Positions 23,391 to 64,000 of a stretch of 64,000 bases of DNA are shown piece after piece; the first letter of the stretch is position 1; the number at the start of each line of letters is the position of its first letter. The stretch covers positions 4,052,001 to 4,116,000 of the forward strand of contig NC_069130.1 of the NCBI RefSeq assembly GCF_026914265.1. Direction: 5' to 3'. Both the position numbers and the translations under genes were made by a program. Below the pieces are notes generated by a model that was not told the DNA's origin, searched no databases, and worked only from the letters and a program-made list of their open reading frames with translations. The stretch is from Mya arenaria. Lineage: Eukaryota; Mollusca; Bivalvia; Myida; Myidae.

Positions 23391-23429
<39 letters not shown>

Positions 23430-37831: not shown

Positions 37832-40800
37832 CTATTTTGTCGCGGACATAAAGCGTTCCTGGGCTAACTTCTTAAGATCTTTCCGTGAAAGTTTCCCGGA
37901 CGACAAGAGAGGAAACTCGTCCAGAAACATGTAAAACTTCGGTAAAACAGTAAATACACCAGGTCTGTCATTGTGGTAGTCCTCACAAAACCTTCTAAGG
38001 GTCTCCTCTGTTAAGTCACTTCCATCTTGTTTAATGACGCATGCGCACACAACCTGGTAGAAAACCGGGTCGGGGACGGGAACCAGCGCGGCTGCCCCGA
38101 ACCCCGGGCAGTTCTTCAGAACGCGCTCCAAGATCTCCGGGGCAACGTTCATCCCACCGCTAATTATCATGTTAGACTTACGGCCGTCGACGAAGATTTG
38201 GCCGTCTGACGTCATCCGCCCTAAGTCGTCTGTTTTGTACCAGCCGTCATCTGTGAACGCTTGCTTCGTTTTCTCAGGATCGTTGTAATACTCCTTAAAT
38301 ATTACCCGACTGCGAATGAATATTTCTCCCCTCTCGTTCATTGGAACTACTTTTCCGCCCTTATCGACGATTTTAAATTCAAACCCAGGTCCAGTGATGA
38401 CCTTACCACAAGAGAACTCCACGAAGTTTTCTATATCTGTGACCACCCCAAGGCCGCAAATTATGAACTCCGTCCCACCGTATGCGCAGACGACACTGGT
38501 ACACAGCGGGCCGATACACTGCACTGCACCACGTGTGATCGGTTGACCACCAGTGAGAATGTACCTCAGGGAACAGTCGGAGGGAATTTTGTCCTGCAAT
38601 ATTCATTGGTTAAAAGCAACTTTTAAAACTTATAGGCGTGGGAAAGGTAAGAGCCAAATTTCAGTACCCTAACTACATAATATAAAGAGACTGATAATTT
38701 TAACTAATAAAGGCATTTAAAGATATTTATATCAGTTATTAAGCTATGTATATTAACATAATCGCCAGCGCTTCGCATTTGAAAGAAATAATTGTAAATC
38801 ATACTAACCTTCCGGCGAATCATCTCGTGCAAGAACGGCGGGAGCACGTACATGAGGGTGCACCGCTCACGCTGGATGATCTGGACGGTGGCGTCCATTA
38901 GGTCCGCGCCTGAAGAGGCGAAACCGGAAGTGGTGACGCGGGTTTGTCCAGTGAGTACCTGGAAGGGGAAACCCCCGACCCAGGTGAACGGCCGGTCACA
39001 GTAGACTCTCAGCGACCTGCAAAAGGCATACACTTCTTGGGTTTAAAACTAATACTCACAGATTAAGAATGCTCAGATTGCATAATATTCTCTACTAGGC
39101 TTGAAATTCAAAAGCTTGCAGTAAAAAAAGAAAAAAACTTCTGTTATTTGAGGCCGTCACTTCTGACCATTTTGTTCAATATTTGTCCTAATTGTTATTG
39201 GCTTAGGGCCTCAGGTATAAGCTTCGTCAACTAAAACCTGGTTTGATGGTCGGGTGCGGTAAGTGTATCCCAAAACATTTAAGAAATACAGAACCCCGTT
39301 GCTTCGAGCTCGCTTGGTTCAACATTCCTCGTTGGCTCGAACTTGATGTTAAGACCGATTTATTTATACTGAAGGTAAACATTCCCGCATGGCTTGAATG
39401 TTCCGAGGCTCGAGGTTTTATCGCCGGACCCTGGGAGTTCGAGCCAACGGGGTTCGACTGTTATCTAATTTGAATATTAAATTGATGAAAATCTGGCAGA
39501 TTTCATCTCCCTTCAGAGATGTTGGGATCATATAAAGTCCGGTACCCGTGACAGTGCATCCATAGTGCAGACCAACTAGTGAAGGCGTTAATTTTAAAAG
39601 CAATTTGTAAATTTTGCACTTCTTCCTCAAGTATTACAAACCAGTGAAGGTAAAATGACATTATAAGTACTGGTCACTCAGCCCGCAAATGTGTATATGC
39701 CGTGGTCCACTCATTATCGACACATGGTAAGTGGTCAATAAGTAGCGTGTTATATATCTTATGCTATACATTTCATATTACTATATTGTAAAGCTATTGG
39801 TGCGTTTTATTGCACAAAGCAAATAATGCACAAACGTTTCAACATTTAAAAACATTGTTTAATTTCGCATATTATTTTAATTGTTGTGAAAAGCGCAAAG
39901 CTAAGTAAATATCTGAGATAGGGCATACGTGAACTTTTAGCTGATGCATCGTTGCTATGACTGTCGAACAGCTGTTCTAAGACGTCCCATTTCTCTCCGT
40001 TCTCCCCCGGATCCATCACAAGCAGTGCGCATGTCTGGAGACGTTCCATGGTTGCTACGACGTCACTTCCGTCTGTGTATGTGAATGAAAGACAAGCAGG
40101 GCGTAGCCCGGCCACCATACATCCGAAAGTGAGGTACACCCACTCCGGGCAGCTACGGAGATCGATCGCTACGCACTCGCCCTTTCTAAGGCCTGAAAAT
40201 TTGTGTTAAAAGAAAGGATTATAACACTTAAGAATGTGTCAACTGCGTAAAAAGGTTTTATGACATTTATAATCCAAAAAAGCTGTTGAGAAACAAACAA
40301 TCTAAGAACATATTATATACATTTAACGTTTATATATATGCAAACTGAATTAATCAGAAAGAAACACATGTTTTACTTTGGATGTTCTTACCGAGTTTTA
40401 GAAGCGCCCTGGTGACGTTGAACGAGTTCTCGTGCAGTTGCCTCCACGTGACCACATTACGCTCGTATTGCGCACCTGTCGTGTACGTAGAGGATGGTCA
40501 ATTAGACAGTAACGTCTGGTGGAACATAAAGTATACGTGCGCGAAGTGAAACAAAGAACTGTCCATTTCTTACTTAGTAAAGGGAAAACGACCTTAACAG
40601 GTTATGACTTTATCAGGTAATTTCCTTGCAAATGCTTTACCTACTTGATACCTTTATTCATGACACACATAACTATGTTCAAAATCATTTTATACGTGTG
40701 TTTTGTGCTAAATATTAGATAGGTTACCAGAACAGAACAGAACAGAAAAGTTATTTTTGACTTAAGCATATACAGCTCATCGTCACATTACACAAATATA

Positions 40801-43800
40801 AACATAAATATGGAATACACACACACATAAACAATCAAAATATATATAGTTTCATGTATAACACGTTTTAAATGATGTTTGTTTCATTGACAGATTTTCC
40901 AGAAATTTCTCAAAAATGGAAAGAACAAAAGAAATAAAGGAAAACATCAACCAAGTTACACATAAATCAGCGTGCATGATGGTTGATATGAAAGTGAGAA
41001 TGTTAAATATATTATTTAACACATAAACCTTGAAAATTGCGGAAAGTATAATAAGACATGAAAATAGAAGCAGTATTGCCGTTTATAAAGGAACCTAATA
41101 CCAATAGATTGGAGATACATCATGTGTGATAAAACAACAACAGGAAACAAAACAAACAAACATGTAAAAAGGAAATACAAAGACATATACAGCTCGTCTT
41201 GTTTTTGGTGACAATTCATGAATAAAACAATTAGGCATTATTCTTTCTTATTTTAAAGACTTTTAGACAAAAAATTGCTAATTACCAAACATAACTTGTA
41301 ACTTGTACGTGTTGCCATGCACCCCTTAATGTACATTTAGTGTTCGATATACGTGTGATAATCAACTTCGCTGACACTCGTGATTTTATAAACTAATGGC
41401 CATTCCCGTTGCGTCCATGTATACTGTTTGTTACATCAATATTTCCGATAAACGAGTCTCTTTCAATAACAACGGGACAACAAACAATGTACACGTACAA
41501 ACCATGCACACGTACACACTACACTACCAGTATGGTGTACAACTTACAATCAAGACGTACACATAAACACCATGCACACGTACACACTTCGCTACCTGTA
41601 TGGTGTACAACTCACAGTCAACACTTAAACGTACACACCATGCACACGTACACACTTCGCTACCTGTATGGTGTACAACTTACAGTCAAGACGTACACAT
41701 AAACACCATGCACACGTACATACTTCGCTACCTGTATGGTGTACAACTCATAGTCAAGACGTACACGTACATACTACACACAAGTAAACACTTCGCTACC
41801 TGTATGGTGTACAACTCACAGTCAAGACATACACGTACACACCATGCACACGTACACACTACGCTACCTGTATGGTGTATAACTCACGGTTAAGACGTAA
41901 ACGTACACACCATGCACACGTACACACTACGCTACCTGTATGGTGTACAACTCACAGTCAAGACGTACATGCACACACTATGCACACGTACACACTACGC
42001 TACCAGTATGATGCACAACTCACAGTCAATACCTACGCATACACACTTCGCTACCTGTGTGGTGTACAACACACAGTCAAGACGTACGCGTACACTACAT
42101 GCACACATACACACTTCGCTACCTGTATGGTGTACAACTCACAGTCAAGACTTACGCGTACACACTTCGGTACCTGTATGATGTATAACTCACAGTCAAT
42201 GCGTACACGTACACACTATGGAGACGTACACACTTCGCTACCTGTATGGTGTACAACTCACAGTTAAGACGTACACGTACATACTATGCACACGTACACA
42301 CTATGGACACGTACACATTACGATACCTGTATGGTGTACAACTTACAGTCAAGACGTACACATACACAGCATGCACACGTACACACCTCGCTACCTGTAT
42401 GGTGCACAACTCACAGTCAAGACGTACGTGAACACACTATGCACACGTACACACTTCGCTTCCAGTATGGTGTACAACTCATAGTCAAGACTTGCGCGTA
42501 CACACTTCGCTACCTGTATGATGTATAACTCACAGTCAATGCGTACACGTACACACTATGGACACGTACACACTTCGCTACCTGTATGGTGTACAAATCA
42601 CAGTCAAGACATACACGTACATACTATGCACACGTACACACTTCGCTACCTGTGTGATGTATAACTCACAGTCAATACGTACACGTACACACTATGGAAA
42701 CGTACACACTACGCTAACTGTGTCGTGTACAACTCACAGTCAAGACGTACACGTACACACCATGCACATATACACACTTCGCTTCCAGTATGGTGTAGAC
42801 TCACAGTCAATACGTACATGTACACACTATGCACACATACACACTTTGCTTCCAGTATGGTGTACAACTCACAGTCAAGACGTACATGTACACACCATGC
42901 ACACGTACATACTTCGCGACCTGTATGTTGTACAACTCACAGTCAAGACGTACACGTACACACTATGCTACCTGTATGGTGTACAACTCACAGTCAAGAC
43001 GTACACGTACACACTACGCTACCTGTATGGTGTACAATTCACAGTCAAGACGTACACGTACACACCATGCACACATACACACTTTGCTACCTGTATGGTG
43101 TACAACTCACAGTCAAAGAATACACGTACACACAACGCTACCTGTATGGTACACAACTTACAGTCAAGACGTGCAAGTACAGACCATGCATACGTACACA
43201 TCTCGCTACCTGTATGGTGTACAACTCACAGTCAAGACGTACACTTACACTATTCGCTACCTGTATAGTGTAAAACTCACAGTCAAGACGTAAACGTACA
43301 GACCATGCACACGTACACAATATGCTACCTGTATGGTGTACAACTCACAGTCAAGACGCACATGAACACACTATTCACACGTAAACACTTCAATACCTGT
43401 ATGGTGTACAACTCACAGTCAAGACGTACACGTACACACTATGCACACGTAAACACTTCACTATCTGTATGGTGTACAACTCACAGTCAAGACGTACACG
43501 GAAACACTATGCACACGTACATACTACGCTACCTGTATGGTGTACAACTCACAGTCAAGACGTACACGTACACACTTTGTACACGTACAAACTACGCTAC
43601 CTGTATGGTGTACAACTCACAGTCAAGACGTACACGGACACACTATGTACACGTACCCACTTCGCTACCTGTATGGTGAACAACTCACAGTCAAGACGTA
43701 CACGTACCCACTACGCTACCTGTATGGTGTACAACTCACAGATAAGACGTACGCATACACACTACGCTACCTGCATGGTGTATAACTCACAGTCAACACT

Positions 43801-45302
43801 TACGCGTACAAACTATGCACACGTACACACTACGCTACCTGTATGGTGCATAACTCACAGTCAACACTTACGCGTACAAACTATGCACACGTACACACTA
43901 CGCTACCTGTATGGTGTATAACTCACAGTCAACACTTACGCGTACAAACTATGCACACGTACACACTACGCTACCTGTATGGTGTATAACCCACAGTCAA
44001 CACTTACGCGTACAAACTATGCACACGTACACACACGCTACCTGTATGGTGTATAACTCACAGTCAACACTTACGCGTACAAACTATGCACACGTACACA
44101 CCACGCTACCTGTATAGTGTATAACTCACAGTCAACACTTACACGTACAAACTATGCACACGTACACACCACGCTACCTGTATAGTGTATAACTCACAGT
44201 CAACACTTACGCGTACAAACTATGCACATGTACACACACGCTACCTGTATGGTGTATAACTCACAGTCAACACTTACACGTACAAACTATGCACACGTAC
44301 ACACTACGCTACCTGTATGGTGTATAACTCACAGTCAACACTTACACGTACATACTATGCACACGTACACACTACGCTACCTGTATGGTGTATAACTTCC
44401 AGTCAACACTTACACGTACATACTATGCACACGTACACACTACGCTACCTGTATGGTGTATAACTCACAGTCAACACTTACACGTACAAACTATGCACAC
44501 GTACACACTACGCTACCTGTATGGTGTATAACTCCCAGTCAACACTTACACGTACAAACTATGCACACGTACACACCACGCTACCTGTATAGTGTATAAG
44601 TCACAGTCAACACTTAAACGTACAAACTATGCACACGTACACACTACGCTACCTGTATGGTGTATAACTCACAGTCAACACTTAAACGTACAAACTATGC
44701 ACACGTACACACTACGCTACCTGTATGGTGTATAACTCACAGTCAACACTTACGCGTACAAACTATGCACACGTACACACTACGCTACCTGTATGGTGTA
44801 TAACTCACAGTCAACACTTACGCGTACAAACTATGCACACGTACACACTACGCTACCTGTATGGTGTATAACTCACAGTCAACACTTACGCGTACAAACT
44901 ATGCACACGTACACACTACGCTACCTGTATAGTGTATAACTCACAGTCAACACTTAAGCGTACAAACTATGCACACGTACACACTACGCTACCTGCATGG
45001 TGTATAACTCACAGTCAACACTTACGCGTACAAACTATGCACACGTACACACTACGCTACCTGTATAGTGTATAACTCACAGAACATACGTACATGAAAA
45101 CGTAAATACAGCGTTTTGAAACCTTTCTTTAATAATTGTAATTGCTTCTTATAGACTTTCATATACCTGGTGTAACAAAAACAAGCGCATCCCCTTCCCC
45201 GAGTTCCGCCGCGTTTTTCGCTAGACACGCCCCTACAGTCTTAATACCGTCGTCATGTACAGTACGCTCCAAATGGATGTAGCTTTCCCCACACGGCGCC
45301 AT
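37832..45302 (-). CDS. ACSF2-like acyl-CoA synthetase, left copy, lacking the P-loop part of exon 3
   Basis: Exons: 45302-45167 (start MAPCGESYIHLERTVHDDG), 40475-40392, 40192 to about 39932 (broken), 39016-38809, 38593-37832 (stop). The family activates fatty acids with ATP and CoA; ACSF2 is mitochondrial in vertebrates. Exon 4 carries YVLPPFLHEMIRR. Exon 5 (253 codons) has ILTGGQPITR, SVVCAYGGTEF (TGE-like motif), GRGEIFIR-like NERGEIFIRS, DDGWYKTDDLGR, the hinge-type DGRKSNMIISGGMNVAP and the C-terminal SSGKLSRKDLKKLA with the catalytic-type Lys. The end of exon 3, with the phosphate-binding TSGSTGVPK, is absent. After MPYLRYLL the sequence jumps to intron sequence found 435 bases further on in the right arm. 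So this copy is probably not a working enzyme as assembled. Intact, it would be about 566 residues. Confidence 0.85.
39289..39460. mobile_element. Small MITE with pogo/Tigger-like ends
   Basis: The left end CAGAACCCCGTTGCTTCGAG and the right end in reverse complement CAGTCGAACCCCGTTGGCTC are typical of short pogo/Tigger-type (Tc1-mariner) derivatives. TA precedes the left end. It is about 172 bases long. It is repeated in the right arm from 63851 to the window end. Confidence 0.65.
39311..43016. repeat. Left arm of a large inverted duplication
   Basis: It matches 59797-64000 in reverse complement: MITE, intron, exon 3 (part), intron, exon 2, intron and the first part of the tandem array. For example, the 204 bases at 41016-41219 are identical by eye to 61679-61882 reversed. 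The left arm lacks about 435 bases present at 62970-63404. The outer limit is not reached because the window ends. Confidence 0.93.
40728..41230 (-). repeat. Possible LINE or SINE 3' end with pentamer tail
   Basis: On the minus strand an AATAA-type sequence is followed by (TTCTG)n at about 40730-40750, the style of some LINE 3' ends. No coding part is visible. The matching copy in the right arm ends at about 62157. Confidence 0.35.
41480..45085. repeat. 51/68-bp tandem array in intron 1 of the synthetase gene
   Basis: Units share CGCTACCTGTATGGTGTA and AACTCACAGTCAA. In the part up to about 43780 units alternate between about 51 and 68 bases, with linker GACGTACACGTACACAC. From about 43780 to 45080 they are nearly uniform 68-base units with linker CACTTACGCGTACAAAC. 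The second block looks recently homogenised. Long open frames on both strands are repeat artefacts. Confidence 0.95.
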
Positions 45303-46065
45303 TTCACTTGTTGGTATAAAGGAGTGATAAAATAACTACATTTGCATACACATGTACATCTGCTATTCCTTGATGTCAGTTACTCCACTGTTAAAAGTTC
45401 TTTGAAATGCGAGAGTAATCTTATCTTCGCTTCTAAAATATTCTATTCACCCGAGTAAAAATACACCTCTACATGTATGCAAGCCTTTCTGTGCCTATGC
45501 ATAGTGATACAGCAGCTGCGGGGATTGCTCTCTGCTGATAAAAACTTGAATGACCTTGTTCACCTTGTGATATCTCCCCAGGTTTATCAAATATTACTAT
45601 CTTAAACCGGATCATCTCTTGGTGTACTTCAGACATAAGATAGCACAGCCGGTCTTTAGGTTTGCTATACGCTGAAAAGTACGGGAATTTGAGGTAAACA
45701 TAGGTTTACTTGTTGTTGTTTCGCTCTGAATTAAAAAGAAGTAGAGCAATGGACTCGCACAGAATCAACTCCAGACACATTGTTGATGAATATTAGACAC
45801 TTACCATTGTATATTTGTTTTTAAACAAATTAGCATGGCTTATGAATGAAACGTTTGTTTACAATGCTGGTTTACTCTTTTTGACTCTCTTTCGTTTATA
45901 AGTTATTTAACGAAGTTTCAAATATGTTGTTTACTCTTGCAGACATATCATGCTTGAAGATTTACAGACAAAGCTTTTTCAAAGTATGGTTATTTTTAAT
46001 GAAAACGAAATGTTGACTTTAACCGACCGGAGTGTATGCCAAAGTATATCATAAGGTGGCATATA
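45303..46065. other. Upstream flank of the synthetase start, no feature seen
   Basis: About 760 bases upstream of the likely ATG. No TATA box or upstream exon is evident. Confidence 0.4.
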
Positions 46066-47327
46066 ACTGCCGTAAGATAGCCTGTTAAAGCTGCACTCTC
46101 ACAGATTGAACGTTTTGGCAACTTATTATTTTTTGTCATGGAACGAGCCAATTTTTGCGAAGATCCATGGAAACCAGTGATATAAGACTGCAGACAAAAA
46201 TAAGATCACTGATCGTTTTATATTTAAGTTAAAAAATTAATGTTTTATGTATTTTTCTTAAACCGTTAGTGACGGTTTAAGCCATAAAACATTAATTTTC
46301 GAATGGAAATATGCAAATCTGCGATCTGATCTTTTGTCAGTCGTTTGCGAATTTGTTATGTGTTAATCACTTAATTTTCGCGGTAATTATCTAGCTATCT
46401 TGTTAATTATCGCGATGTCGGTAAGATAAATATGATAAGACTAACAACAGGCTTGAAAGTGCCCAGAATTGTCACCTATTACCTTTTAGCTGTACAACAT
46501 TAACATATTAAGTAGCATGGTTTGCAAATTCCACTTAATAAGTAATATAACGACTGGTTTACTAGATAAGATTCCTGTTACCACTAAGGCCTAAACAAAT
46601 TGTTTGGCTAGGGTTACATCCTTTAAAAGAATAGGTAGGGTAGGTAGCCTTTTTATTATAAGCCTTTATATGAGAATGTTATTTTCATCATTGGAAAACA
46701 GTGTTCAAGTTAGCTTCCGTGTATAAGGCGATCAATGCATTAAACTACATATTAAAACACACCTTTTAAGCCTTACCTATAAATGTTTTTTTTTGGCTTT
46801 TTTGCAGTGACTGGATATCTAGTTATGATTTGCGAATTCCACTTAGTAAATAACTTACTAACTGATTAACTAGAAAATACCAGTTACCTATAAATGCATT
46901 CCAGATTCAGGCGCTAACAGGTTTCTAGATATGGTTTGCGAATTCCACTAAGTTAAAACCAAAGATAAGATTCGTGTTACCACTTACTAAGTGAAATTCG
47001 CAAAACAGAAGAAAATAATCAGTCGTATGAATATATGTACATGTATGATACCTGGTAACACGAATCTTATCTAGTTAACATGTTACAACATGTATTATGT
47101 TTTTTATTAAGTGGAATTACCATACCTAGTTAACCTGTTAATGTTGTTTAGCTAAAAAGGGTAATAGGTGGCAGTTCTGGGCACTTTTTAGCCTATTTAT
47201 AGTATTATGATATTTATCTTACCAAAAAAGTATCGCGAATATTAACTAGATAACTAATTAAATATCACGAAATTAAGTGTTTAACTCGAAACGATTTGCC
47301 AACGCTATCAGGTTATCTTACGGCAGT
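46066..47327. mobile_element. Inverted-repeat element of about 1.26 kb
   Basis: The ends ACTGCCGTAAGATAGCCTG and, reversed, ACTGCCGTAAGATAACCTG continue as inverted repeats of about 230 bases (for example GGTAAGATAAATAT near 46425 and 47208-47222) once an inserted MITE (46085-46340) is removed. Inner parts include repeated GCGAATTCCACTTA blocks. No transposase is seen. Confidence 0.75.
46085..46340. mobile_element. Truncated palindromic TTAA MITE inside the larger element
   Basis: It starts TTAAAGCTGCACTCTCAC and includes the central hairpin AAACCGTTAGTGACGGTTTAA. It matches the complete copy at 48043-48407 but lacks about the last 105 bases. It interrupts the left inverted repeat of the 46066-47327 element, so it inserted later. 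Confidence 0.8.
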
Positions 47328-48042
47328 AATCAATCGTAACAACTCGGCCTTCTCCGGCAAGCTTCGAGAAAGACCTCGTTAATAGTAGTAAGGATCATCA
47401 TAGGTTATGATACGATGGGGTGCCGAGGATGAGTAGGGATAAACGAAAGTGCGATGCGGCTGCCATTAAATTTTGACCCCGTTGAAAAGTGACCCCATGG
47501 ATCATTTTTCAACGTTGAGAATTGACCCTGCCAACAATTCAACGTTAAGTTTTGATCCAAAAATCGTTGAAATGTGATCAGTCGTTAAATTTTGATCACA
47601 AATGGGGTCTTTTTTAACAGGTGGAAAAAAGGCATATGTACGCATAGAGGCGTTCTTATATTTCAAGCAATTCAATAAAAGCTATGACAACAACATCATT
47701 ATACAACGTTAAGCATGCGCGGATCCAGACTACAATGCCGAGGGTCAAACTCATCCTGAAATATTGACAACCAAAAGTGTTTCTTTCTCAATTATTTATG
47801 AACCAGAGAACATGTTTTACCGCATATGTATGGTCTGTTATGCGTCCCATAAGGGAACCTTCATATCGAAAGGGGTCCGATTTAAATTTGAGAAGTGGGA
47901 GGCTGGCATGAATATGTTTAAAGAAGGGCTTGTCAAATTTCAGGGGGCACGACCCCTCGCCGTCCCATCCTTTCCGGCACATGCATGGTGACGTTTCTGT
48001 ACGTTTCCGTACATAAGAGAGGAGGAATACAATGTTCCTCAC

Positions 48043-48407
48043 TTAAAGCTGCACTCTCACAAATTTACCGTTTTTACAACTTTTTATTTTTTTGTCTTGG
48101 AAAAAGCAAATGTTGCGTAAATATCTGCAAACTATTGACAATAGATTGCTGACAAAAGATCAGATTGCAGATTTGCATATTTCCGTTCGAAAATTTATGT
48201 TAATGGCTTAAACCATTAGTAACGGTTTAAGAACACTGCATAAAACATTAATTTTTGAACTGCAATATAAATATCTGAGATATAATTTTTTGTCAGCAGT
48301 ATTATATCAGTTGTTTCCATGGATTTTTGCAAGAAATGACTCGTTCCAAGACAAAAAAATAAAAAAAAAGTTGTCAAAATGTTCAATCAGTGAGAGTGCA
48401 GCTTTAA
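48043..48407. mobile_element. Complete palindromic MITE, 365 bp, TTAA at both ends
   Basis: It is an almost full-length palindrome: TTAAAGCTGCACTCTCAC at one end and GTGAGAGTGCAGCTTTAA at the other, with the central AACCATTAGTAACGGTTTAA. TTAA ends suggest piggyBac- or Kolobok-type mobilisation. Confidence 0.9.
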
Positions 48408-48783
48408 GAGGGGCATATAAATTTGGCCTCCGGACCATGCGTCAGTGCATCCCACCTTAATTATCAAATCTGTGGCCTTCAAAAGTATAAGATCTAAAGC
48501 CATGAAACTTTCATTTTTCAGCATCAACTCCTCATTAACGACATAAATGGGATTCGTTCACAGATTGCCAAATTGCACTTTTGAATATTTGTGTTGCATA
48601 TTCCAAAATAAACTGATGCATCGCATTAGATATGTCAAATTTTGAAAAGTGCCTATTGGCCTTCTTCAAACTATGTGGATATATCTTTATGGTCAAAAAG
48701 TGTCTTTGAAGCAACACGATTTTAAAGCGTTAGTAAAGCCTCTCTTTATATCGAATGTAGTACTTTTAATTTCAAACCTCCAT

Positions 48784-48866
48784 GGCCGAGTGGTAAACGC
48801 ATTGGACAATATTTTTGGACTTATAGTCGTAAGGTGGGTAGATGGTGAGTTCGAAACCCCGCCCTG
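48784..48866 (+). tRNA. tRNA-like sequence (Ser/Leu type), degenerate
   Basis: TGGCCGAGTGGTAAACGCA resembles the A box of class II tRNAs (Ser or Leu), and GAGTTCGAAACCCC resembles the B box. The acceptor stem does not pair well. It is probably a pseudo-tRNA or SINE head rather than a working gene. Confidence 0.45.
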
Positions 48867-49249
48867 CCAACATTATCATCAAGTTTTTGCTTTTTGCATT
48901 TTTTATTTCCATAATTTCTATGTCAAACAGCATCAGGATAAAACATTGACCATAAAGAATAATTTTTCAGGAAAGGGGTGTGTCGTTTGTAAACAAAACT
49001 ATAATTTATTAAATTTAATGTTACGGCACATTGAAGAGCGAATTTGCTATTCTGGTTTTGCAGCCAGATATAGTCTATTAAATATTATATTGGATACAAA
49101 CATTCAAAATGCATGTGTCGTCATAGGCGTTGTGCGAAACTTGGTAGCATTGAAAAATTTAGTTCGTCTATTCAAATCGAAGGGAAAGCTTGTTTACACA
49201 TTTGATGTGCATGCTAAAAGGCTAAGTCACATGGTCGAATTAAAAAAAT

Positions 49250-50040
49250 AAGCTTGTTATCACCCAAGGCCATGCTATGAAAAGGAGAGGATTCGATTTC
49301 GCACAAAATTGAGTCTCAAAAACGAGTCAAAACCTGTTTCTTTTGTAGAAACAAATATTTTATCAAACTGCACACACTATTCATTCTTTAATATACTTAT
49401 AATTATTAGAAGAAACTAATTCACAGTTGCCGTCTAGGAAGAGTTGTATATAATGTTTCAACTTATTTTATCAAATGGTTTCTGAATCAGAATTTCTGAA
49501 GTCGATTAGGGCCAAATTCGAGCAAGAGTAACTTTATTATTTTGAAAAGGCTGATCACTGCGATGGCCGATGAGACGTTTCTATCCAGTCCATCGGTTGG
49601 ATACTAAGAGATGACCTTGATAATGACTGAACAAAACCTCAACCATGGTTCATTATAATTATACATTTTAATACAAAACTCGTATGAAAACTGAAGGGTT
49701 TCAAATACAGGTACATTATTTTGAAGACCCAGGATGTCCTCTATGAAATATTTCATCAGGAAATTTATACGATTTGACCACTTTAACGATATATTAAGGA
49801 TATGTTTATAACGACCAAATTGCGATCTAATATATAGAGTTATAATGATAAATTTATGACTAAAATTAACAATTTGTTACCAGTGGTACGATCGTTATAC
49901 GAGGTACGTTGTATTTACGAGTTGTTGCTATTGAAGTATGAGTCATTATGGTCAATCTAGCCTTTACGAGTATTGTACGTTACAATGTGTTGGCGAGCTG
50001 CTATGACACGGCTGCGAAACAGTGGCTCCAGCTCTTTTAG
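49250..50040. other. Interior of the inverted-repeat unit, nothing recognised
   Basis: AT-rich sequence without domains, RNA signatures or clear repeats. Confidence 0.35.
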
Positions 50041-50044
50041 GAAC

Positions 50045-50120
50045 TGTGTATAAAAAGAGCCAATGACTCTTCCGAGCTAGAGCAAAAGAATGGATATCAT
50101 CATAAAACGTAAGTATAACT
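50045..50120 (+). promoter_or_regulatory. Candidate TATA promoter with short first exon
   Basis: GTATAAAAAG at about 50048-50057 is followed about 33 bases later by AAGAATGGATATC and then a strong donor-like GTAAGTATAAC at about 50109. This spacing fits a core promoter, a first exon with a start codon and a splice donor. No downstream coding exon could be identified, so it may be chance or part of the surrounding element. Confidence 0.2.
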
Positions 50121-50916: not shown

Positions 50917-50997
50917 GAGCGGGGTTTCGAACCAACGACCTACCGACCTCACGACTGTAGGTCCAAAAGTATGTTCAGCGTGTTAGACCACTCGGCA
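50917..50997 (-). tRNA. tRNA-like sequence (Ser/Leu type), inverted partner
   Basis: On the minus strand TTGCCGAGTGGTCTAACAC (A-box region) and GTTGGTTCGAAACCCCGC (B-box region) lie at tRNA-like spacing with a long variable part. It is better preserved than the copy at 48784-48866, but stem pairing is uncertain. Confidence 0.5.
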
Positions 50998-52859
50998 ACG
51001 GAATCGGTAAACCTTCGGTATAGAGAAAGGTCTGTAGAAATCAAGCGGTTTCTAAGTGTCCAGTTGTCAGTCTTCAATTTTTAACATATCTAATGCGTTG
51101 CATCAGTTTATTTTGGAATATAAAACAAAAAATCTTAAAAAGTGCAATTTGGCAATCTGTGAACGAGCCCCTTTAATCACTTAAAAATATGAAAATGATG
51201 CAAAATTGTTTATCTGACAACTGTATGGTTAAAGGCGTATTGCATAAGCTTATTGGGATATGTTTTCAACGTTGAAACGACTTGCATACAGCGTATTAGT
51301 ATTCAACGGGGTCATTTTTTAATGTGTGGCTTGGGTCATTAAATAACGGGCAGGGTCATTTTTAACGTTGACAATTGATGAAAAATACGTTGAAAAATGG
51401 GTCACTTTTCAACGGGGTCAAATTTTAATGTTACATAGGCGATTAACACCATTTTCAATCCGTGTAAAGAAGGACCATTGTAACAACAAGAAAATCGATT
51501 GTGTTAAGGTGGAACGCGACTATGAATTACTGTCTGAAAATTGGTATACGAATAGAAGAGCATATGCACAATTAGGGACTGTTTTTACATTTTCAATATT
51601 CGGAACAGTTTTGAAACTATGACTCCTCAAAATATACCACTGACGTCAATTTCGAGACGTCTCTCATATTTTTGCGTTCCAGCTACAATAACCGATAGTT
51701 TCACCAATTCTTCGTTTACCGCTAAGAAAATTAAACCTCAAGTGCGTCTTGAGAAAACGTTCACGCACATATATTTTTCGTTCTTTTGTGTTACGTTATT
51801 TATTTAAAATTCGTCTTTAACGTCTTTTCTCGCGGGAAAAACGGCGTCGTGTTTCGCTGAAAAAAAGTGCGCCTTTCTTTAATTCTTGAAAAAGCTGCTC
51901 GTTTAATTTTTGATTTTTTAAAATAAATGTATTCAATGTTTTACTACAAATTGCCTGATATAAAAAAGGTACCTCACCGAGTTCGTTTTTGCGCAGTATC
52001 AAATAATCTAACCCCTATACCTGTTCTTTTTCATTACGTATTGTTATAAAACGTTTAGCATGACATAAATCGAACTATTATTTACTATAATAAGAGCTTA
52101 GTTTTGAATAAACCACTGATCAATAACATATAACATTTGTTGTTAATTTTAATTAAATTGATAATTCAACATTGTTTTCTTCTGTTGAATTCCGAATAGT
52201 TAACATTATTAAATAATTAAAGCATTGATTATAAATGAACTATAGTTAAAGTGACATGCTTATCCAAAATCCATGCATAAACATGTATAACAAGATCAAT
52301 TTTGTCTAATAAAACTTAACTTCTTACTCAATTATGCATTTATGGAAAGTATTAATTACTGGTTAAAAGATTTTAACCGCGTGTTTAATAACAGAATGCA
52401 CAAAAACATCAAATTATTGGTGAATGCTAAAATATTTACTGTGGTCTACTCTAATCTCATAATGTAAAAATATCATGTTTTATGCTCATTTCTTTCAAAT
52501 CAACTCGGTATTTCTCATAAGAACCTTTGTTTTCGACAAGATTTCTGCATCCAAGCGTCGGATCACGTACGACCTCAAATAGACTTATTTTTATTGCATG
52601 TAGAATATAAGTTTTTTATTTATACTTATATATAGCTATATCCTACCTGTATAAATATTTTGACAACAATATGCTATAATTTTAAACTGTACTATTATTG
52701 TATATAATATTATTTATGTTCTATGTCTATCAATGTTTGGATATATTATGAATATGTCCAGCCATGGTGAAAATTAAGATATTGAGTTGAGTTGAGATGG
52801 GAGAGTAAGTGTGTATCTTTAAATAGTTACTATAAGCTCATTTTGTTAAGGGTTGTTAT

Positions 52860-54340
52860 AGCTTACATACAAACACACGCACAACACGTACAAAAAAGTC
52901 ACGTACGCACGCGTAAAAACGCACCCCACACACCATCCCACACTCAAGCACGCGTGCACACGCATGCATATATGCGCACGCGCTCGCGCTCTCGCACACA
53001 CACACACGCGCACGAGCACGCAAGCACGCACACACGCAAGCACGCACGCACGCACACACACACACACATACACAAACGATCATACGCACGCCCACGCACA
53101 CGCACACACACACACGCGCACACGCACACACACGCTCTCACACACATCTACGCTCTCACACGCAGGCATGTATGTACACACGCACACACACGCTCTCACA
53201 CACATGTACGCTCTCACACGCAGGCATGTATGTACACACGCTCTCACACACGCTCTCACACAAAAGTACGCTCTCACACGCAGCATGTATGTACACACGC
53301 TCTCACACACGCTCTCACACACATGTACGCTCACACACGCAGGCATGTATGTACACACGCTCTCACACACGCTCTCACACACATGTACGCTCTCACACGC
53401 AGGCATGTATGTACACACGCTCTCACACACGCTCTCACACACATGTACGCTATCACACGCAGGCATATATGTACACACGCTCTCACACAAGCTCTCACAC
53501 ACAAGTACGCTCTCACACGTAGGCATGTATGTACACACGCTATCACACACGCTCTCACACACATGTACGCTCTCACACGCAGGCATGTATGTACACACGC
53601 TCTCTCACACGCTCTCACACACATGTACGCTCTAACACGAAGGCATGTATGTACACACGCTCTCACACACGCTCTCACACACATGTACGCTCTCACACGC
53701 AGGCATGTATGTACACACACTCTCACACACGCTCTCACACACAAGTACGACACGCAGGCATGTATGTACACACGCTCTCACACACGCTCTCACACACAAG
53801 TACGCTCTCACACGCAGGCATGTATGTACACACGCTCTCACACACGCTCTCACACACAAGTACGCTCTCACACGCAGGCATGTATGCACACACGCTCGCG
53901 CGCTCACACGCACGCACGCCTGCACACACGCACGCACACACGCGTGTACAATACGCACGGCAGGGACATTGAGTGCGAGATAAGGTAGCTATGTTGGCTT
54001 CTGTATCATGGGCATTGAATGCATCGCCGAAAGTTGTCTCATGAATTCGCTTGAACGCACGAGAAGCTTTGATTGCGTGGTAAAGTCAGGAAAACAAAAT
54101 AACTCGTTATGGATTAAAACAAACAATGCATTGATTAACAAAATTAAACATTTTACTGCACTAAAAACATTAACTTTAAGATCATTTGAGCCATTTGGAA
54201 CATATATTTTATCATAGTGTGTGTGTGCGTGTGTGTGTGCGTGTGTGTGTGCGTGATCGTGTGTATGAGCGTGCGTGCCTGTACGAGTATGTGGGCGTAT
54301 ACGTGCGTTCATGTGAGTGCATTTGTGTGAACTATAACAA
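52860..54340. repeat. CA-rich core with a 60-bp minisatellite
   Basis: From about 53150 to 53890 about twelve 60-base units occur, each with ACGCTCTCACACGCAGGCAT and GTATGTACACACGCTCTCAC, flanked by (AC)n/(GCAC)n. A GT-rich tract follows at 54216-54330. Sixty is a multiple of three, so frames up to 398 codons stay open on both strands. They encode only His/Thr/Ala- or Cys/Val-rich strings and are not genes. Confidence 0.93.
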
Positions 54341-55545
54341 CCCTTAAGAAGATGAGATAATAGAAACAATTCCATGTGATCATTTACAATCAGTGCAAAC
54401 ACAAGTATTAAACACAAATACGATTTACCACAACTAATACTATAGTTTTAATATGCCTTTAAGAATAAATACATATCGAAAACAATGGTTCTTATGAAGA
54501 ATACCGAGTTTAATTTGAAAGAAATATGAGACCATAGTAAATCCTTTAGCATTCAATAAAAAAATGAATTATTTTTGCGCTTTCTACTATTAAATAAACA
54601 GTTACAATCTTGTAATCAGTGAAAAATACTTTGTATGAGTTTATTATTTCGTAAGAAGTAAGAGTTTATCAGTCAAAATAAATGTTTGTTATACATGTGG
54701 AATATTGATTTGAATAAGAGTTTCACTTTAAAATTTTAGTGTGTTTTAAATTAACGCCGATTGACCACATGAGTTATTTTCTTTCTGTTCAAAAAATGAC
54801 CGATCATTTTTTTAACGTCAAGAACTGACCACCCCCACCCCTCCCCAAACCGTTGCGTAACAAATGACCCTCGCTGAAAATGTTCAAGAGTTATATTCAC
54901 TACCAAACTTAGTCAATAATATGGTTACCAATATTAGTGGAATGTATTAATTGTATATGTTTTTAATCAACGATAACCGATTGACTACATCAAACTTAGA
55001 TTCAATACACTGAACTCTATAGTCGCGTATTTTATAGATCTGTATACTATTACATTTTTCACTGTTATACAGAAGAAAACTTGGATGATTATAAGGGGGG
55101 GCTGCACGCCCTCTACTGCCGGGATCCGTTTGTGCTTATTACAATGCAGATTTCTGTCGATTATCATTTTTTGGTTTGTAAGTTATATTTTGTGTATGAA
55201 ATGAGTGTCACATACTGGATTTACTATGCTTTTGCTTAGTTTAGAGCCTTATAACTGCAGATCTCTACTGATACTTATTAAAGAAATTGGTAACTAATAA
55301 AGTAGTAGAACCGTTTATTGTTGTGTTATTACTGTAGATGTATAATTATATAAAAACAAAGCACTCATCAGCATAATCACAACTCATAGCATAGTGACTG
55401 GAACGATTATTGATGTGTATTATCAAAATATTATAATTTGGCAAATGAGATTGCTTAATAATGAAGAAAGCCTCTCATTAAAATAGCTGCCAGATTTAAG
55501 TCATTGATTTATAAAGCTGATTATTCAGCGCCCGTCTTGTGTGGA

Positions 55546-58500
55546 ATTATATTCTCTTTTATATATTCTCTTTTATTCCACTTTTCAGTGATTTAACATA
55601 TGATATAAGTGACATGGCATACAATGTAGTTAATAATATAAATAATACATGTTCCAAAAGTACATTACTTATACATATTATATAGTTGTATGATTAAAAA
55701 TGTTTCAGTTTTGCAGAGTTTACACGTGTATTCGGGTTGAAATTGTCTGTAAACTAAGGCCTTGGTTGCACTAATGGCGTGAATGATTTCCGTGCGTGAC
55801 TGTGCATTCAACTAAAGAATGGATGGGGCAATAGACTCATGGACGCTTTGGAATCTTCGGAAATCCTCGTCAGAGTTGGTTCTTCTTCGCCACTGAGTTT
55901 TGTGATACAGTGATAATGTTCGATTGACTATTTGTTTCCACTTACTTTTACTTGGGAATATGGATGTTTTAAGGTACACATTCAAAGACCCAATCAGTTC
56001 GTATTTTTGCAAAAGTGAAATTATGTCCGGAATGTAGCCTGTCTGATGTTGAAATCCCTTTGCTATGTATAGGTTCAGTCTATAGTTGAATTTCTGACGA
56101 GTTAGCAATGAGGTGGGCATAGTACAAAGTTTTTGCAGGAATATGAGTTTACGTTTATGGATGTCGTATTCCATTGTGTACCAGCCTAGCATGCTTAGGG
56201 CCATATCCGTGCGTGTCGATGTCGGTAAATGTTGAATTCGTTTAGCTGCTAGGCGCTTGAATCTTTCTAATCGCATTGATGTAGCGGAAACGTTGGACCA
56301 TAATTCTGCGCCGTACAGTGCTGTGGGTATGCTGACTTTTGTCACGAGAGAGGCTATTGTCAAAGGGTTAACATCGCCCTCGGATTTTTCATTTGAAAGT
56401 ACACTGAAAAGGGAGGAGTATCCTTTTCGTAGACGATTGTAAATAGTTTCACTGCAACTTAAATTATATCTCAAGTTCACACCGAGGTGTTTAGCAGAGT
56501 GTACGCTGACCAGTGTTTGCTGCCCAAATGGTACTGTTGTTTCACGAGGACTGTTTTTCTGGAATATAACGAGTTGGCATTTACTGAAATTAAATTCATA
56601 GCCCCATTTGTTGGCGTATTCAAGGACAACAGCGAGTTGATTTTCAAGAGACATTTTGTTCGGGCAAAGTAGAGTTAGATCATCGGCGAGAGTGGGGTTC
56701 CCACAGGGGATATCATGCAGTGTTAAACCATGGCCATTATTTTCAAGGATGTTCAGTATTTCATCAATGAAGAGGAGATAACTCCATGTTGATATTATTC
56801 CGCCTTGCCGTACACTTTGAAGAACAGGAAAGGTTTCGGATAGGACTCCATTTGCAAGAACACATCCTTTAAGAGATGAATATATAATAACCATCAGCCT
56901 CAGGAAAATGCCTTTTAGACCAAGTGATTTCATTTTCATAATTATGGCACTGTGCCGAACGGAATCAAATGCACCCTTGGTGTCCAGTAGGGCACAGTAA
57001 ACACTTGATCCGAGCTCCAGTCTATTCGCAACTGCTTCTTGTACGTTGAACGATGTTGTTACGGGCCCGATATGCTTTTGGTATGCATTTTGTTGTTTAT
57101 TAGGGAAGTCGATGCCACTGTCAGCACACCATGTATTCAAACGGCTATGGATGACATTTTCAAATAGCTTGTATAGCACCGGCAATAAAGAAATAGGTCT
57201 GTAGCTACTTGGGAAGGACCTTGGTTTTACCTCTTTGTGAACTGGGATAATGATACCAAGTTTGCATTCTTCCGGAACGTAAGCACATTTGATCATTAGC
57301 GTGAATAGTCGTGCAATATATGCCCGCAGAATTTTACCGCCGTATTTTATGTGCTCCGGCGTTACTTTGTCATATCCGGGGGCTTTTCTCATCTTCATTT
57401 TTCTAAAAGCATTATTTAACTCATCGATCTGTACGTTTTCTGTTAAATTTGGGTCGAACTCATAGTCATTCGATTGCATGAATGCATTAACATCAGAATC
57501 TAATTTGTTCAGAAATTCGTTGTCGAAATGTGGTGCACTCTTAGGTTTGAAAGTTTGTGAGTAGTAGTCACGAAAAGCATTTGATATTTGGTGTGGGTGC
57601 CTAAATGAGATACCATTTATAGCTAGCTCATTTATTGGATTCGATCTAGAAGTACGTTTCGTCTTTACTAAATACCAAAATAGACGCATGTCGCACTCCG
57701 CAGCCTCGTTTAAGTCATTATAAAACTTTTCATTGCAATTGTATATAGCAGCCTTTGGGGTGTTGATGAATGCTCGTTTTGCCGATTTGTAACTGACATA
57801 TAGTGGAGTATCACGCTCTCTGGGTTTTCCTGCAGAACACCATTTTTTCGTTCATCTTTTTGGATCATATGCGCGCATTTTACATCACTAGTCCAATAAG
57901 GCTTAGCATGCATGTTATATTTTGACATGGGCAAGTTTGATTCAGCACATTCTAACATTGATCTAATTATATGATCATAGAGTGAGTGTATATCAGTATT
58001 ACACAACCGTATACTATCAAGACTAAGTTTGCACAGTTTGTTAGCAAGAGCGACTGCGTATGAATTAAAATGTTGATCTGTACATTTGTTCCATGCAATT
58101 AATAGTTTATCAGACAAAATGAAGTGATATAACGGAAAACAGACAGTGGTGACTATGGGTAAGTAATCGGATACAACACAACAATCATCGTTAACAATAC
58201 AGCTATCTAACACAATATCTAACTGCGATTTACATAATACAACATAATCTAGAATTCTTTTACTCGGCCTAAATGTGAAATTTACTCCTCTGTTTAAACA
58301 CGACGAAAGTTCGTTGTCAGATAAAAAGTTATTAAATGCAGTTGACCTTCTGTCATTAATATCAGTCAGTTGCACATTAGCATCTCCACATAATATTATA
58401 AAACCGTCATTAGAATACATGTCATAAATACTTTGTAGTTCGGTTAAGCATTCTTTATAATCATCAAATGTATAATTTGCCGATGGTAGATACATGCATA

Positions 58501-58788
58501 ATAAATAGATAGGTGTAACAATAGTGGACTCTACACTTGTTAATTTAATGCCAGTCAAGCGAGTGAATTTAATGTTTCTAAGTTCTTGCACAGCAAAAGA
58601 GAGAGATTTCTTAAACATTATGCTCACACCTCCTTTACCACATTTAACGTTTAAGTCAACTTGTTCACAGACACAGATAGATCTATATGATGAGTGTAGT
58701 GTATTTAAGAATGAAGCACTGGGTGACTTAAGTTTGTGCTCTGAGATGCATGCGATGTCGAATGTCGTAAGTGTCTTTAAGTAGATTG
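55546..58788 (-). mobile_element. Nearly intact 5'-truncated LINE (endonuclease and reverse transcriptase)
   Basis: It is inserted in copy B; the empty site is visible in copy A near 25500. The endonuclease part (about 58788-57850) starts mid-domain at FDIACISEHKLK, with GDANV near 58385 and SDYLPIV at 58151-58170, where Tyr stands in place of the usual catalytic His. The reverse transcriptase follows (frame 57689-55812 and upstream): KMRKAPGYDKVTPEH, SSYRPISLLPVLYKLFENV, motif A LDTKGAFDSV, motif B QSVRQGGIIS, motif C PTLADDLTLL, and a C-terminal LYGAELWSNV. Both Asp of motif C are present. The two frames are separated by one shift in or near the T run at 57843-57848. The 3' end has short repeats of AAAAGAGAATATAT rather than poly(A). 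It is a young copy of CR1/jockey style; the clade is unassigned. Confidence 0.88.
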
Positions 58789-59796
58789 TACAACAACAAT
58801 AACAAATATCACTAACATAAAACTGATCAGACACTCTAAGATTTCTAATCTTTCCATTTAATAAACAAAAGCAATTCGATTAACATCATGCTAAACGTTT
58901 AAATACACTACGTTTTGAAAAAGAAACAGGTATAGGGGTTAGATTATTTGATACTGCGCAAAAACGAAGTCGGTGAGGTACCCTTTTTTTGATATCAGGC
59001 GATTTGTAATAACACATTGAATACATGTATTTGAAAAAATCAAAAATTGAACGAGCAGTTTTTTTCAAGAATTAAAGAAAGGCGCACTTTTTTCAGCGAA
59101 ACACGACGCCGTTTTTCCCGCGAAAAATGACGTTATAGAAGAATTTAGAATAAATAACGTAAAACAAGAGAAAGAAAATATATGTGCGTGAACGTTTCCA
59201 CAAGACGCACTTGATGTTGAAATTTCATAGCGGTAAACGAAGAATTGATGAAAATATCGGTTATTGTAGCAGGAACGCAAAAATATGACAGACGTCTCAA
59301 AATTGACGGCAGTGGTATATTTTAAAGACTCGTAGATTCGAAACTGTTCCGATTATTGAAAAAGTAAAAACAGCCCTAACTGGGCATATGCTCTTCTATT
59401 CGTATACCAATTTTCAGACAGTAACTCGAAAAAAAAATCATAGTCGCGTTCCACCTTAAATTAATTGTGCACGTAAAAGAGAAGATATTTATTGTAACAT
59501 CAAAGAATGTTCGCATCTGAATATTTAGATGTTTCTGATACCTGAAGCCGACTGTTTCCTCTAAAACAAATCGCGAGCACACAGAAAATGCACTTGACAG
59601 TAATCGAAATGGTCATAGTTCATGGCATGCATGAAGCAATTAATCGGATTAAATGCATGCATGGACTAAAAGTCAGCTTTTTTTCAATCAGCGTACGATT
59701 ACCCTATGAAATGTAAGTTTCAAGTCAAAGTTTGCTTGTGTTTTTTAGCTTCAATGGGTAATGTTCCACACAAAGTGCGTGGAAGTGCGGCCCAAA

Positions 59797-61420
59797 CGTG
59801 TGTACGTGTACGTCTTGACTGTGAGTTGTACACCATACAGGTAGCATAGTGTGTACGTGTACGTCTTGACTGTGAGTTGTACAACATACAGGTCGCGAAG
59901 TATGTACGTGTGCATGGTGTGTACATGTACGTCTTGACTGTGAGTTGTACACCATACTGGAAGCAAAGTGTGTATGTGTGCATAGTGTGTACATGTACGT
60001 ATTGACTGTGAGTCTACACCATACTGGAAGCGAAGTGTGTATATGTGCATGGTGTGTACGTGTACGTCTTGACTGTGAGTTGTACACGACACAGTTAGCG
60101 TAGTGTGCACGTGTCCATAGTGTGTACGTGTACGTATTGACTGTGAGTTATACATCACACATGTAGCGAAGTGTGTACATTTGCATAGTATGTACGTGTA
60201 TGTCTTGAATGTGAGTTGTACACCATACAGGTAGCGAAGTGTGTACGTGTCCATAGTGTGTACGTGTACGCATTGACTGTGAATTATACATCATACAGGT
60301 AGCGAAGTGTGTACGCGTAAGTCTTGACTATGAGTTGTACACCATACTGGAAGCGAAGTGTGTATGTGTGCATAGTGTGTTCATGTACGTCTTGACTGTG
60401 AGTTGTGCACCATACAGGTAGCGAGGTGTGTACGTGTGCATCGTTTGTTCTTGTACGTCTTGACTGTGAGTTGTACACCGTATACGTAGAGTAGTGTGTA
60501 CGTGTGCTTGCTGTGTATGTGTACGTCTTGACTGTGAGTTGTACACCATACTGGTATCGTAGTGTGTACGTGTCCATAGTGTGTACGTGTGCATAGTATG
60601 TACGTGTACGTCTTAACTGTGAGTTGTACACCATACAGGTAGCGAAGTGTGTACGTGTCCATAGTGTGTACGTGTACGCATTGACTGTGAGTTATACATC
60701 ATACAGGTAGCGAAGTGTGTACGCGTAAGTCTTGACTGTGAGTTGTGCACCATACAGGTAGCGAAGTGTGTATGTGTGCATGTAGTGTACGCGTACGTCT
60801 TGACTGTGTGTAGTACACCACACAGGTAGCGAAGTGTGTACGCGTAGGTATTGACTGTGAGTTGTGCACCATACAGGTAGCGTAGTGTGTACGTGTGCAT
60901 AGTGTGTGCATAGTGTGTTCATGTACGTCTTGACTGTGAGTTGTACACCATACAGGTAGCGTAGTGTGTACGTGTGCATGGTGTGTACGTTTACGTCTTA
61001 ACCGTGAGTTATACAACATACAGGTAGCGTAGTGTGTACGTGTGCATGGTTTGTACGTGTATGTCTTAACTGTGAGTTGTACACCATACAGGTAGCGAAG
61101 TGTTTACTTGTGTGTAGTATGTACGTGTACGTCTTGACTATGAGTTGTACACCATACAGGTAGCGAAGTGTGTACGTGTGCATGGTGTTTATGTGTACGT
61201 CTTGACTGTAAGTTGTACACCATACAGGTAGCGAAGTGTGTACGTGTGCATGGTGTGTATGTCTTGACTATGAGTTGTACACCATACAGGTAGCGAAGTG
61301 TGTACGTGTGCATGGTGTTTATGTGTACGTCTTGACTGTAAGTTGTACACCATACTGGTAGTGTAGTGTGTACGTGTGCATGGTTTGTACGTGTACATTG
61401 TTTGTTGTCCCGTTGTTATT
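59797..61420. repeat. Tandem array in the right arm
   Basis: This is the inverted counterpart of the older, mixed-length part of the array at 41480-43016. It has none of the uniform 68-base block. Long open frames on the minus strand are artefacts. Confidence 0.93.
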
Positions 61421-62398
61421 GAAAGAGACTCGTTCATCGGAAATATTGATGTAACAAACAGTATACATGGACTCAACGGGAATGGCCATTAGTTTATAAA
61501 ATCACGAGTGTCAGCGAAGTTGATTATCACACGTATATCGAACACTAAATGTAAACTCTATTGAAACATTAAGGGGTGCATGGCAACACGTACAAGTTAC
61601 AAGTTATGTTTGGTAATTAGCAATTTTTTGTCTAAAAGTCTTTGAAATAAGAAAGAATAATGCCTAATTGTTTTATTCATGAATTGTCACCAAAAACAAG
61701 ACGAGCTGTATATGTCTTTGTATTTCCTTTTTACATGTTTGTTTGTTTTGTTTCCTGTTGTTGTTTTATCACACATGATGTATCTCCAATCTATTGGTAT
61801 TAGGTTCCTTTATAAACGGCAATACTGCTTCTATTTTCATGTCTTATTATACTTTCCGCAATTTTCAAGGTTTATGTGTTAAATAATATATTTAACATTC
61901 TCACTTTCAACTTGGTTGATGTTTTCCTTTTTTTGTTTTCCTTTTTTTTCTTTTGTTCTTTCCATTTTTGAGAAATTTCTGGAAAATCTGTCAATGATAC
62001 AAAAATCATTTAAAACGTGTTATACATGAAACTATATATATTTTGATTGTTTATGTGTGTGTGTGTATTCCATATTTATGTTTATATTTGTGTAATGTGA
62101 CGATGAGCTGTATATGCTTAAGTCAAAAATAAATTTTCTGTTCTGTTCTGTTCTGGTAACATATCTAATATTTAGCACAAAACACACGTATAAAATGATT
62201 TTGAACATAGTTATGTGTGTCATGAATAAAGGTATCAAGTAGGTAAAGCATTTGCAAGGAAATTACCTGTTAAAGTCATTTTATGTTTTCCCTTAACTAA
62301 ATAAGAAATGGACAGTTCTTTGTTTCATTTCGCGCACGTATACTTTATGTTCCACCAGACGTTACTGTCTAATTGACCATCCTCTACGTACACAACAG

Positions 62399-63192
62399 GT
62401 GCGCAATACGAGCGGAATGTGGTCACGTGGAGGCAACTGCACGAGAACTCGTTCAACGTCGCCAGGGCGCTTCTAAAACTCGGTAAGAACATCCAAAGTA
62501 AAACATGTGTTTCTTTCTGATTAATTCAGTTTGCATATATATAAACGTTAAATGTATATAATATGTTCTTTGATTGTTTGTTTCTCTACAGCTTTTTTGG
62601 ATTATAAATGTCATAAAACCTTTTTACGCAGTTGACACATTCTTAAGTGTTATAATCCTTTCTTTTAACACAAATTTTCAGGCCTTAGAAAGGGCGAGTG
62701 CGTAGCGATCAATCTCCGTAGCTGCCCGGAGTGGGTGTACCTCACTTTCGGATGTATGGTGGCCGGGCTACGCCCTGCTTGTCTTTCATTCACATACACA
62801 GACGGAAGTGACGTCGTAGCAACCATGGAACGTCTCCAGACATGCGCACTGCTTGTGATGGATCCGGGGGAGAACGGAGAGAAATGGAGCGTCTTAGAAC
62901 CGCTGTTGGACAGTCATAGCAACGATGCATCAGCTAAAAGTTCACGTATGCCCTATCTCAGATATTTACTCGGCCACGAGGACAGTACAAACATCTTAAG
63001 TAACGTTAAGAACTTAACTGATTTACTTTACACCGATTCGAGCGACATGACGTTACCGGAAATAAGCGAGGACGACATAGCGCTGTTACTGCAGACATCT
63101 GGAAGTACAGGCGTCCCAAAACTGGCGGCTCACACACACCGTTCAATTCTCACACCGCGTTACCTCCATCCAGAAACAATAATGTTCGACAG
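62399..63192 (+). pseudogene. ACSF2-like acyl-CoA synthetase, right copy, exons 2 and 3 only
   Basis: Exon 2 is 62399-62482 (VVTWRQLHENSFNVARALLK) and exon 3 is 62682-63192, phases 1 and 2. Exon 3 is complete: CPEWVYLTFGCMVAG, then DDIALLLQTSGSTGVPK, the phosphate-binding signature of the adenylate-forming family, then HTHRS and a donor GTGGGT at 63193. No exon 1 lies upstream: the arm starts inside intron 1 at 59797 and the sequence before it belongs to other repeats. Its phase-2 end fits exon 4 of the left copy. Whether exons 4 and 5 follow beyond the window cannot be seen. It may be a partial duplicate, or part of an intact gene misassembled here. Confidence 0.8.
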
Positions 63193-63850
63193 GTGGGTGG
63201 CTTAAATGAGAGTAGATATATGTTTATTCAAATGTGTAGTACACGTTCAGTTACGTGAGTACGCCAAGCCAGCTGCCAAGGGCAAGGGCTTGTCTAATAC
63301 ATTAAAAAAGGATCGTTGTCATTTAAAATGATTAAAACATGACTATTTTTATAATACAGTTTAGACTTATTTGCGCTGACTTTGCTCGCATAAAACCATA
63401 AATAACTTTGCTTTGCGCTTTTCACAACAATTAAAATAATATGCGAAATTAAACAATGTTTTTAAATGTTGAAACGTTTGTGCTTTAATTGCTTTGTGCA
63501 ATAAAACGCACCAATAGCTTTACAATATAGTAATATGAAATGTATAGCATAAGATATATAACACGCTACTTATGGGCCACTTACCATGTGTCGATAATGA
63601 GTGGACCACGGCATATACACATTTGCGGGACGAGTGACCAGTTCTTATAATGTCATTTTACCTTCACTGGTTTGTAATACTTGAGGAAGAAGTGCAAAAT
63701 TTACAAATTGCTTTTAAAATTAACGCCTTCACTAGTTGGTCTGCACTATGGATGCACTGTCACGGGTACCGGACTTTATATGATCCCAACATCTCTAAAG
63801 GGAGATGAAATCTGCCAGATTTGAATCAATTTAATATTCAAATTAGATAA

Positions 63851-64000
63851 CAGTCGAACCCCGTTGGCTCGAACTCCCAGGGTCCGGCGATAAAACCTCG
63901 AGCCTCGGAACATTCAAGCCATGCGAAAATGTTTACCTTCAGTATAAATAAATCGGTCTTAACATCAAGTTCGAGCCAACGAGGAATGTTGAACCAAGCG
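63851..64000. mobile_element. Pogo/Tigger-like MITE, cut by the window end
   Basis: Begins CAGTCGAACCCCGTTGGCTC and is the inverted counterpart of 39289-39460. Confidence 0.65.

Follow-up and report, generated by a model that had tools for sequence, protein, structure and literature searches.

Can two broken copies of one gene, lying in opposite orientations and each keeping what the other has lost, be the halves of a single gene? The question is raised by a 64,000-base stretch of Mya arenaria DNA (assembly GCF_026914265.1, contig NC_069130.1, here C9, positions 4052001-4116000), which we call the window and number from 1 at its first letter. A preliminary description had seen in it an inverted duplication that splits an acyl-CoA synthetase gene into two complementary broken copies, and had taken this for either an inversion-prone palindrome or a merge of haplotypes. 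From the sequence of this one assembly, it is very probable that the two arms are copies B and C of a predicted acyl-CoA synthetase duplicon (the gene and its flanks), present in four copies in opposite orientations, and that B and C are decaying members of this set. The complementary damage would then be a coincidence between two decaying copies; we hold this with the same confidence, as part of the whole reading. The apparent puzzle is resolved by complete gene copies that flank the damaged pair, beyond the 64-kb view.

The inverted arms that had been described are present. By self-alignment they are:

39311-43065, left inverted arm
59798-64000, right inverted arm

The arms match as two pairs. 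The pair 39904-43065 and 59798-62970, the top-scoring minus-strand self-match of the window, is 92.7% identical over about 3,210 columns, and the pair 39311-39906 and 63405-64000 is 97.8% identical over 596 columns. The match is not due to chance, given this length and identity. A minisatellite of 51/68-bp units fills much of the first pair and also yields many weaker overlapping matches. The outer limits given earlier mark the window edge only, and the second pair is longer than the window shows, reaching 37457 on the left-copy side and 65853 on the right.

With the flanks included (C9:3962001-4226000, 264 kb with no N), we find four large copies over about 0.3 Mb. They are separate, at least 1 kb long and at least 90% identical, as segmental duplications are defined. 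Inverted matches give the order A, B, C, D; the first two copies lie on the minus strand and the last two on the plus strand, and B and C meet head to head. Copy A lies 65-73 kb to the left of the window and copy D 64-78 kb to its right. The match between A and D goes on outward in pieces (89-98%), to at least 3945196 and 4226000. At C9:4231-4234 kb there is an A-side match only in the last 842 of 3000 bases (84-89%). At C9:4246-4249 kb no A-side match is among the matches listed (best 40 of 4793 candidates) and none lies over the first 950 bases; by the same best 40 of 4793 candidates, the rest is dispersed repeat. Related pieces are found elsewhere on C9, at 4.40, 4.48-4.49, and 4.71-4.81 Mb.

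Copy D contains a complete gene, with these exons by alignment:

C9:4179576-4179723, plus strand, exon 1 of D
C9:4190765-4190848, plus strand, exon 2 of D
C9:4191048-4191558, plus strand, exon 3 of D
C9:4192661-4192868, plus strand, exon 4 of D
C9:4193084-4193845, plus strand, exon 5 of D

All four introns of D are GT-AG and the exons encode 570 amino acids and a stop. Copy A has the same five exons, GT-AG introns, and an open frame, with the start codon four codons later in the aligned reading. The exons of the other copies were placed by alignment to D:

37832-38593, minus strand, exon 5 of B, complete, open frame
38809-39016, minus strand, exon 4 of B
39904-40192, minus strand, exon 3 of B, first 289 of 511 bases
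40392-40475, minus strand, exon 2 of B
45167-45302, minus strand, exon 1 of B with start codon
62399-62482, plus strand, exon 2 of C
62682-63192, plus strand, exon 3 of C, complete
64294-64501 and 64717-65478, plus strand, exons 4 and 5 of C, just beyond the window

The earlier exon list agrees with this: five exons in the left copy with exon 3 broken, and in the right copy exon 2 and a complete exon 3, with exon 1 absent. Alignment to D found no exon 1 in C. In C, the frames of exons 2-5 are open and the splice phases match.

PF00501 and PF13193 (AMP-binding and AMP-binding C-terminal) score above the Pfam cut-off in exons of A and B, and PF00501 does so in exon 3 of A and C. Based on these domains, the gene is predicted to encode an acyl-CoA synthetase of the ANL superfamily. 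It resembles the acyl-CoA synthetases and fatty-acid CoA ligases of that superfamily in having both domains and in the best solved relative of the D protein, FadD13. It differs in that the NCBIfam matches shown for the D protein (25 of 104, the best being long-chain-fatty-acid--CoA ligase) are all below the curated cut-offs.

We read the lesions of B and C as having nothing in common, one being a 5′ truncation at the junction of the two copies and the other a separate small deletion. Copy B has 437 bases fewer than C between positions 62970 and 63405 of C, with a 3-base overlap (39904-39906). This deletion removes the end of exon 3, its donor site, and part of intron 3. Copy C starts inside its own intron-1 minisatellite at 59798, and its exon 1 and promoter side are lost; the end of the B 5′ flank lies upstream.

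Three more copies on the same chromosome are also decayed. Copy E (C9:4475389-4478382) carries stops and a frameshift, and the beginning of its exon 3 is missing; an exon-1 match is found at 4489036-4489880. Copy F (C9:4152741-4152879) is an exon-1 relic, 88% identical, without a start codon at that place. Copy H (C9:4397341-4409000 and beyond) has the minisatellite, exon 1, and the 5′ flank, and searches with exons 3 and 5 matched nothing beside it. Because the complete copies A and D and the decayed E, H, and F share the chromosome, one gene is not split between the arms. The idea of complementary halves also fails on the placement of the arms in a four-copy array, on the unrelated lesions, and on ancestry, since B and C are mostly not nearest relatives.

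We also considered C and H as halves of one gene parted by a 287-kb inversion, and rejected this when the predicted partner junction was not found. At E 1e-8 or better, nothing in C9:4379001-4397300, which is all that this search covers, matches the A-D region. Directly beside H, a mobile sequence takes up at least 6 kb (C9:4391341-4397340) and recurs in several copies on many chromosomes (58 matches listed; best 27 of 158 candidates scored). It appears to have been recently active, because its copies are 97-99% alike. A search did not find its far end.

In the gene block, A and D differ by 0.83% (4686 sites), A and C by 1.83% (4656), and C and D by 1.84% (4721), and the values with B are 3.57% for D (4261 sites), 3.60% for A (4197), and 3.90% for C (4232). 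Over 500-base windows of the gene block, the copy nearest to C is A or D in eight of ten. Over its minisatellite, C differs from A by 1.25%, from B by 1.9%, and from D by 12%. Long blocks around the gene block differ by 0.3-1.5% between A and D. Pair totals take in dispersed repeats, and the one for C-D also counts a self-match where segments overlap, so only block values are quoted. Block values also stand in for two sets of rows that look misaligned: those for B in the downstream alignment, from 4205295 onward (about 12-53%), and the opening two windows of E (32-52%). Open-frame lengths of 919 and 936 disagree with the listed frames and are left aside.

Synonymous and non-synonymous changes in exons 2-5 number 3 and 3 for A-D, 6 and 9 for A-C, and 5 and 6 for C-D. 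For exons 4-5 the counts between B and the other copies are 13-15 synonymous and 18-20 non-synonymous, and those for A-D are 0 and 3. The counts are too few to settle the strength of constraint on A, C, and D.

The closest pair shifts along the upstream region. It is B-D at 4177916-4178916 (0.8-1.0%, against 3.6-6.0% for A), A-D at 4175094 (1.0%, against about 4% for B), and A-B at 4177094 (1.7%, against 5.6-6.5% for D). Odd-one-out labels are clustered beyond 2000 shuffles in six of seven triples (p 0.0035 or less), a pattern that uneven rates or alignment could mimic. This suggests gene conversion between copies. Several points weigh against the four-copy account. The seventh triple, A-C-D downstream, is not clustered (p 0.38; longest run p 0.04). 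B is nearest to C in two of the ten gene-block windows (4189738 and 4192238), and the outermost C block (C9:4148641-4151140) is matched by B at 3.2%, with no close match there in A or D.

The junction of B and C was mapped to base level within the intronic minisatellite. The features around it are:

41489-45082, intron-1 minisatellite of B, 51/68-bp units
45303-51507, minus strand, 5′ flank of B, matching A, D, and H
59456-59799, minus strand, end of the B 5′ flank, past an inserted element
59798-59799, head-to-head junction of B and C, about 2 shared bases (GT)
59798-61405, truncated intron-1 minisatellite of C

This minisatellite is about 9.9 kb long in D (C9:4179810-4189737), 3.9 kb in A (C9:3982752-3986619), 3.6 kb in B, and 1.6 kb in the truncated C. 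Read base by base, the B flank runs through CCCAAACGT, then the C minisatellite begins, with about 2 bases common to both. At the same site D has an insertion of about 0.9 kb (C9:4171931-4172820) with an apparent 8-base flanking duplication and the ends TAGGGAT and ATCCCTA, a pattern we take to be that of hAT elements. A and H are uninterrupted there. The break in B lies within about 2 bases of the start of the 8-base site duplicated in D. The junction may involve transposon-linked breakage, which we treat as a lead only. The window has three other large minisatellites, at 3693-7355 (61-bp units, about 60), 9670-10674 (57-bp units, about 18), and 27333-30311 (96-bp units, about 31).

Copy B also contains inserted elements, one of which lies between the arms:

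51508-59455, inserted element of 7.9 kb with a duplicated TTAA target and terminal inverted repeats of about 550 bp
55812-58879, minus strand, frames for an endonuclease (57710-58879) and a reverse transcriptase (55812-57851)

The 7.9-kb element has TTAA on both sides and its site is empty in A and D. A second element in B with the same end sequence (21999-26165) is flanked by TTAA at one end and GTAA at the other, and its site is empty in A, C, and D. A target duplication, inverted terminal repeats, and an empty site in a relative are all found, and we assign both insertions to one candidate family of TTAA-target elements with long inverted terminal repeats. These are presumably DNA transposons of the piggyBac or Kolobok type, to which we ascribe this target site. 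The endonuclease and reverse transcriptase frames are probably a LINE nested in the 7.9-kb element. The separator of about 16.8 kb reported between the arms (43065 to 59798) is mostly the rest of the intron-1 minisatellite, exon 1, and 5′ flank of B together with the 7.9-kb element. Exon 1 of B sits inside it, outside the left arm.

The head-to-head junction could have formed by end-joining or template switching, or by central loss from an older palindrome, in any case removing exon 1 of C. The copies would later have diverged unevenly, probably with some gene conversion, in the ordinary birth and death of duplicated genes.

The best surviving alternative, which we consider unlikely, is that A-B and C-D are two haplotypes of one region, fused in opposite orientation at 59.8 kb of the window. 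The layout is roughly mirrored about the junction, and the divergence of A from D, both over the gene block and in the long blocks surrounding it, is at a level possible for alleles. In the available part of its description, the clam assembly comes from a heterozygous animal and involved haplotig purging and PBJelly gap filling; because gaps were filled, the absence of N is no proof of a read-supported join. However, the copies are not mutual nearest relatives throughout, nor are they collinear. That C is mostly closer to A and D than to B, and in the minisatellite closer to A, speaks against merged haplotypes. Beyond 4014 kb, A and D are 6.5-19% apart in the eight blocks that align. The stretch of about 44 kb between A and B is not matched collinearly by the roughly 7 kb between C and D, and there are extra copies at 4.40 and 4.48 Mb. 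On balance, the divergence pattern favors old, real duplications over C as the allele of B. Between the two options first offered, a real inverted duplication is the better, and the merge is disfavored by structure and divergence.

It is far less probable that, in certain animals or cells, recombination between the arms inverts the segment that carries exon 1 and its promoter side, joining it to the broken B or to the headless intact C. If true, this would be a naturally flipping gene, assembled in the state with exon 1 on the broken body of B. The geometry would allow it: with exon 1 of B positioned between the arms, an inversion would attach this exon to the intact body of C, with its open exons 2-5 and matching splice phases. 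Outside the minisatellite, the two arms are 2.05% apart over the 1.6-kb block that lies upstream of the exon 3 deletion. Nevertheless, a single orientation is seen in the one assembly and the lesions of B resemble ordinary decay. Because A and D are intact, a switch is unnecessary.

That one gene was duplicated once, recently and in inverted orientation, and that damage to both copies followed, would fit arms that are 92.7-97.8% alike. This reading is ruled out, as four large copies exist, A and D match C more closely, and B and C are not sisters over most of their sequence.

The genome has 1.216 Gb in 18 contigs, 17 chromosomes and a mitochondrial contig. Contig 18 (17,947 bases) is taken as the mitochondrial genome because it contains COX1 with six in-frame TGA. 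The available part of the published assembly paper gives an expanded mitochondrial genome of 19,815 bases, and contig 18 would be the unexpanded form. Related acyl-CoA synthetase exons, about 38-58% identical, also form small groups on C6 (22.77-23.03 Mb), C9 (23.20-23.29 and 25.11-25.16 Mb), and C3 (52.13-52.14 Mb), some mixed in orientation and some with stops.

A literature search for bivalve acyl-CoA synthetase expansion with tandem duplication found no paper, one for Mya arenaria and acyl-CoA synthetase turned up, in the part of the results available, only an oyster study, and one for inverted or segmental duplication, bivalves, and gene conversion listed no title on this locus. The four-copy account makes the locus a compact natural series, an inverted cluster in which one gene is present intact, truncated, with a deletion, and with transposon insertions.

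Compared with sex-chromosome palindromes with arm-to-arm gene conversion, as the available parts of the sources describe them, the cluster is alike in its inverted arms and in an A-D identity of 97-99.6% over long blocks. It differs in its asymmetrical center (B and C are cut at different points), in its uneven identity, and in that conversion is only suggested. The observation is sound, and we regard what it shows as ordinary: an inverted gene cluster, two members of which appear to be decaying. The cluster resembles inverted segmental duplications with birth and death, which also have large copies in opposite orientations on one chromosome, intact and broken genes, and uneven divergence. There is no difference in kind, and the intronic-minisatellite junction and the two TTAA insertions are local details.

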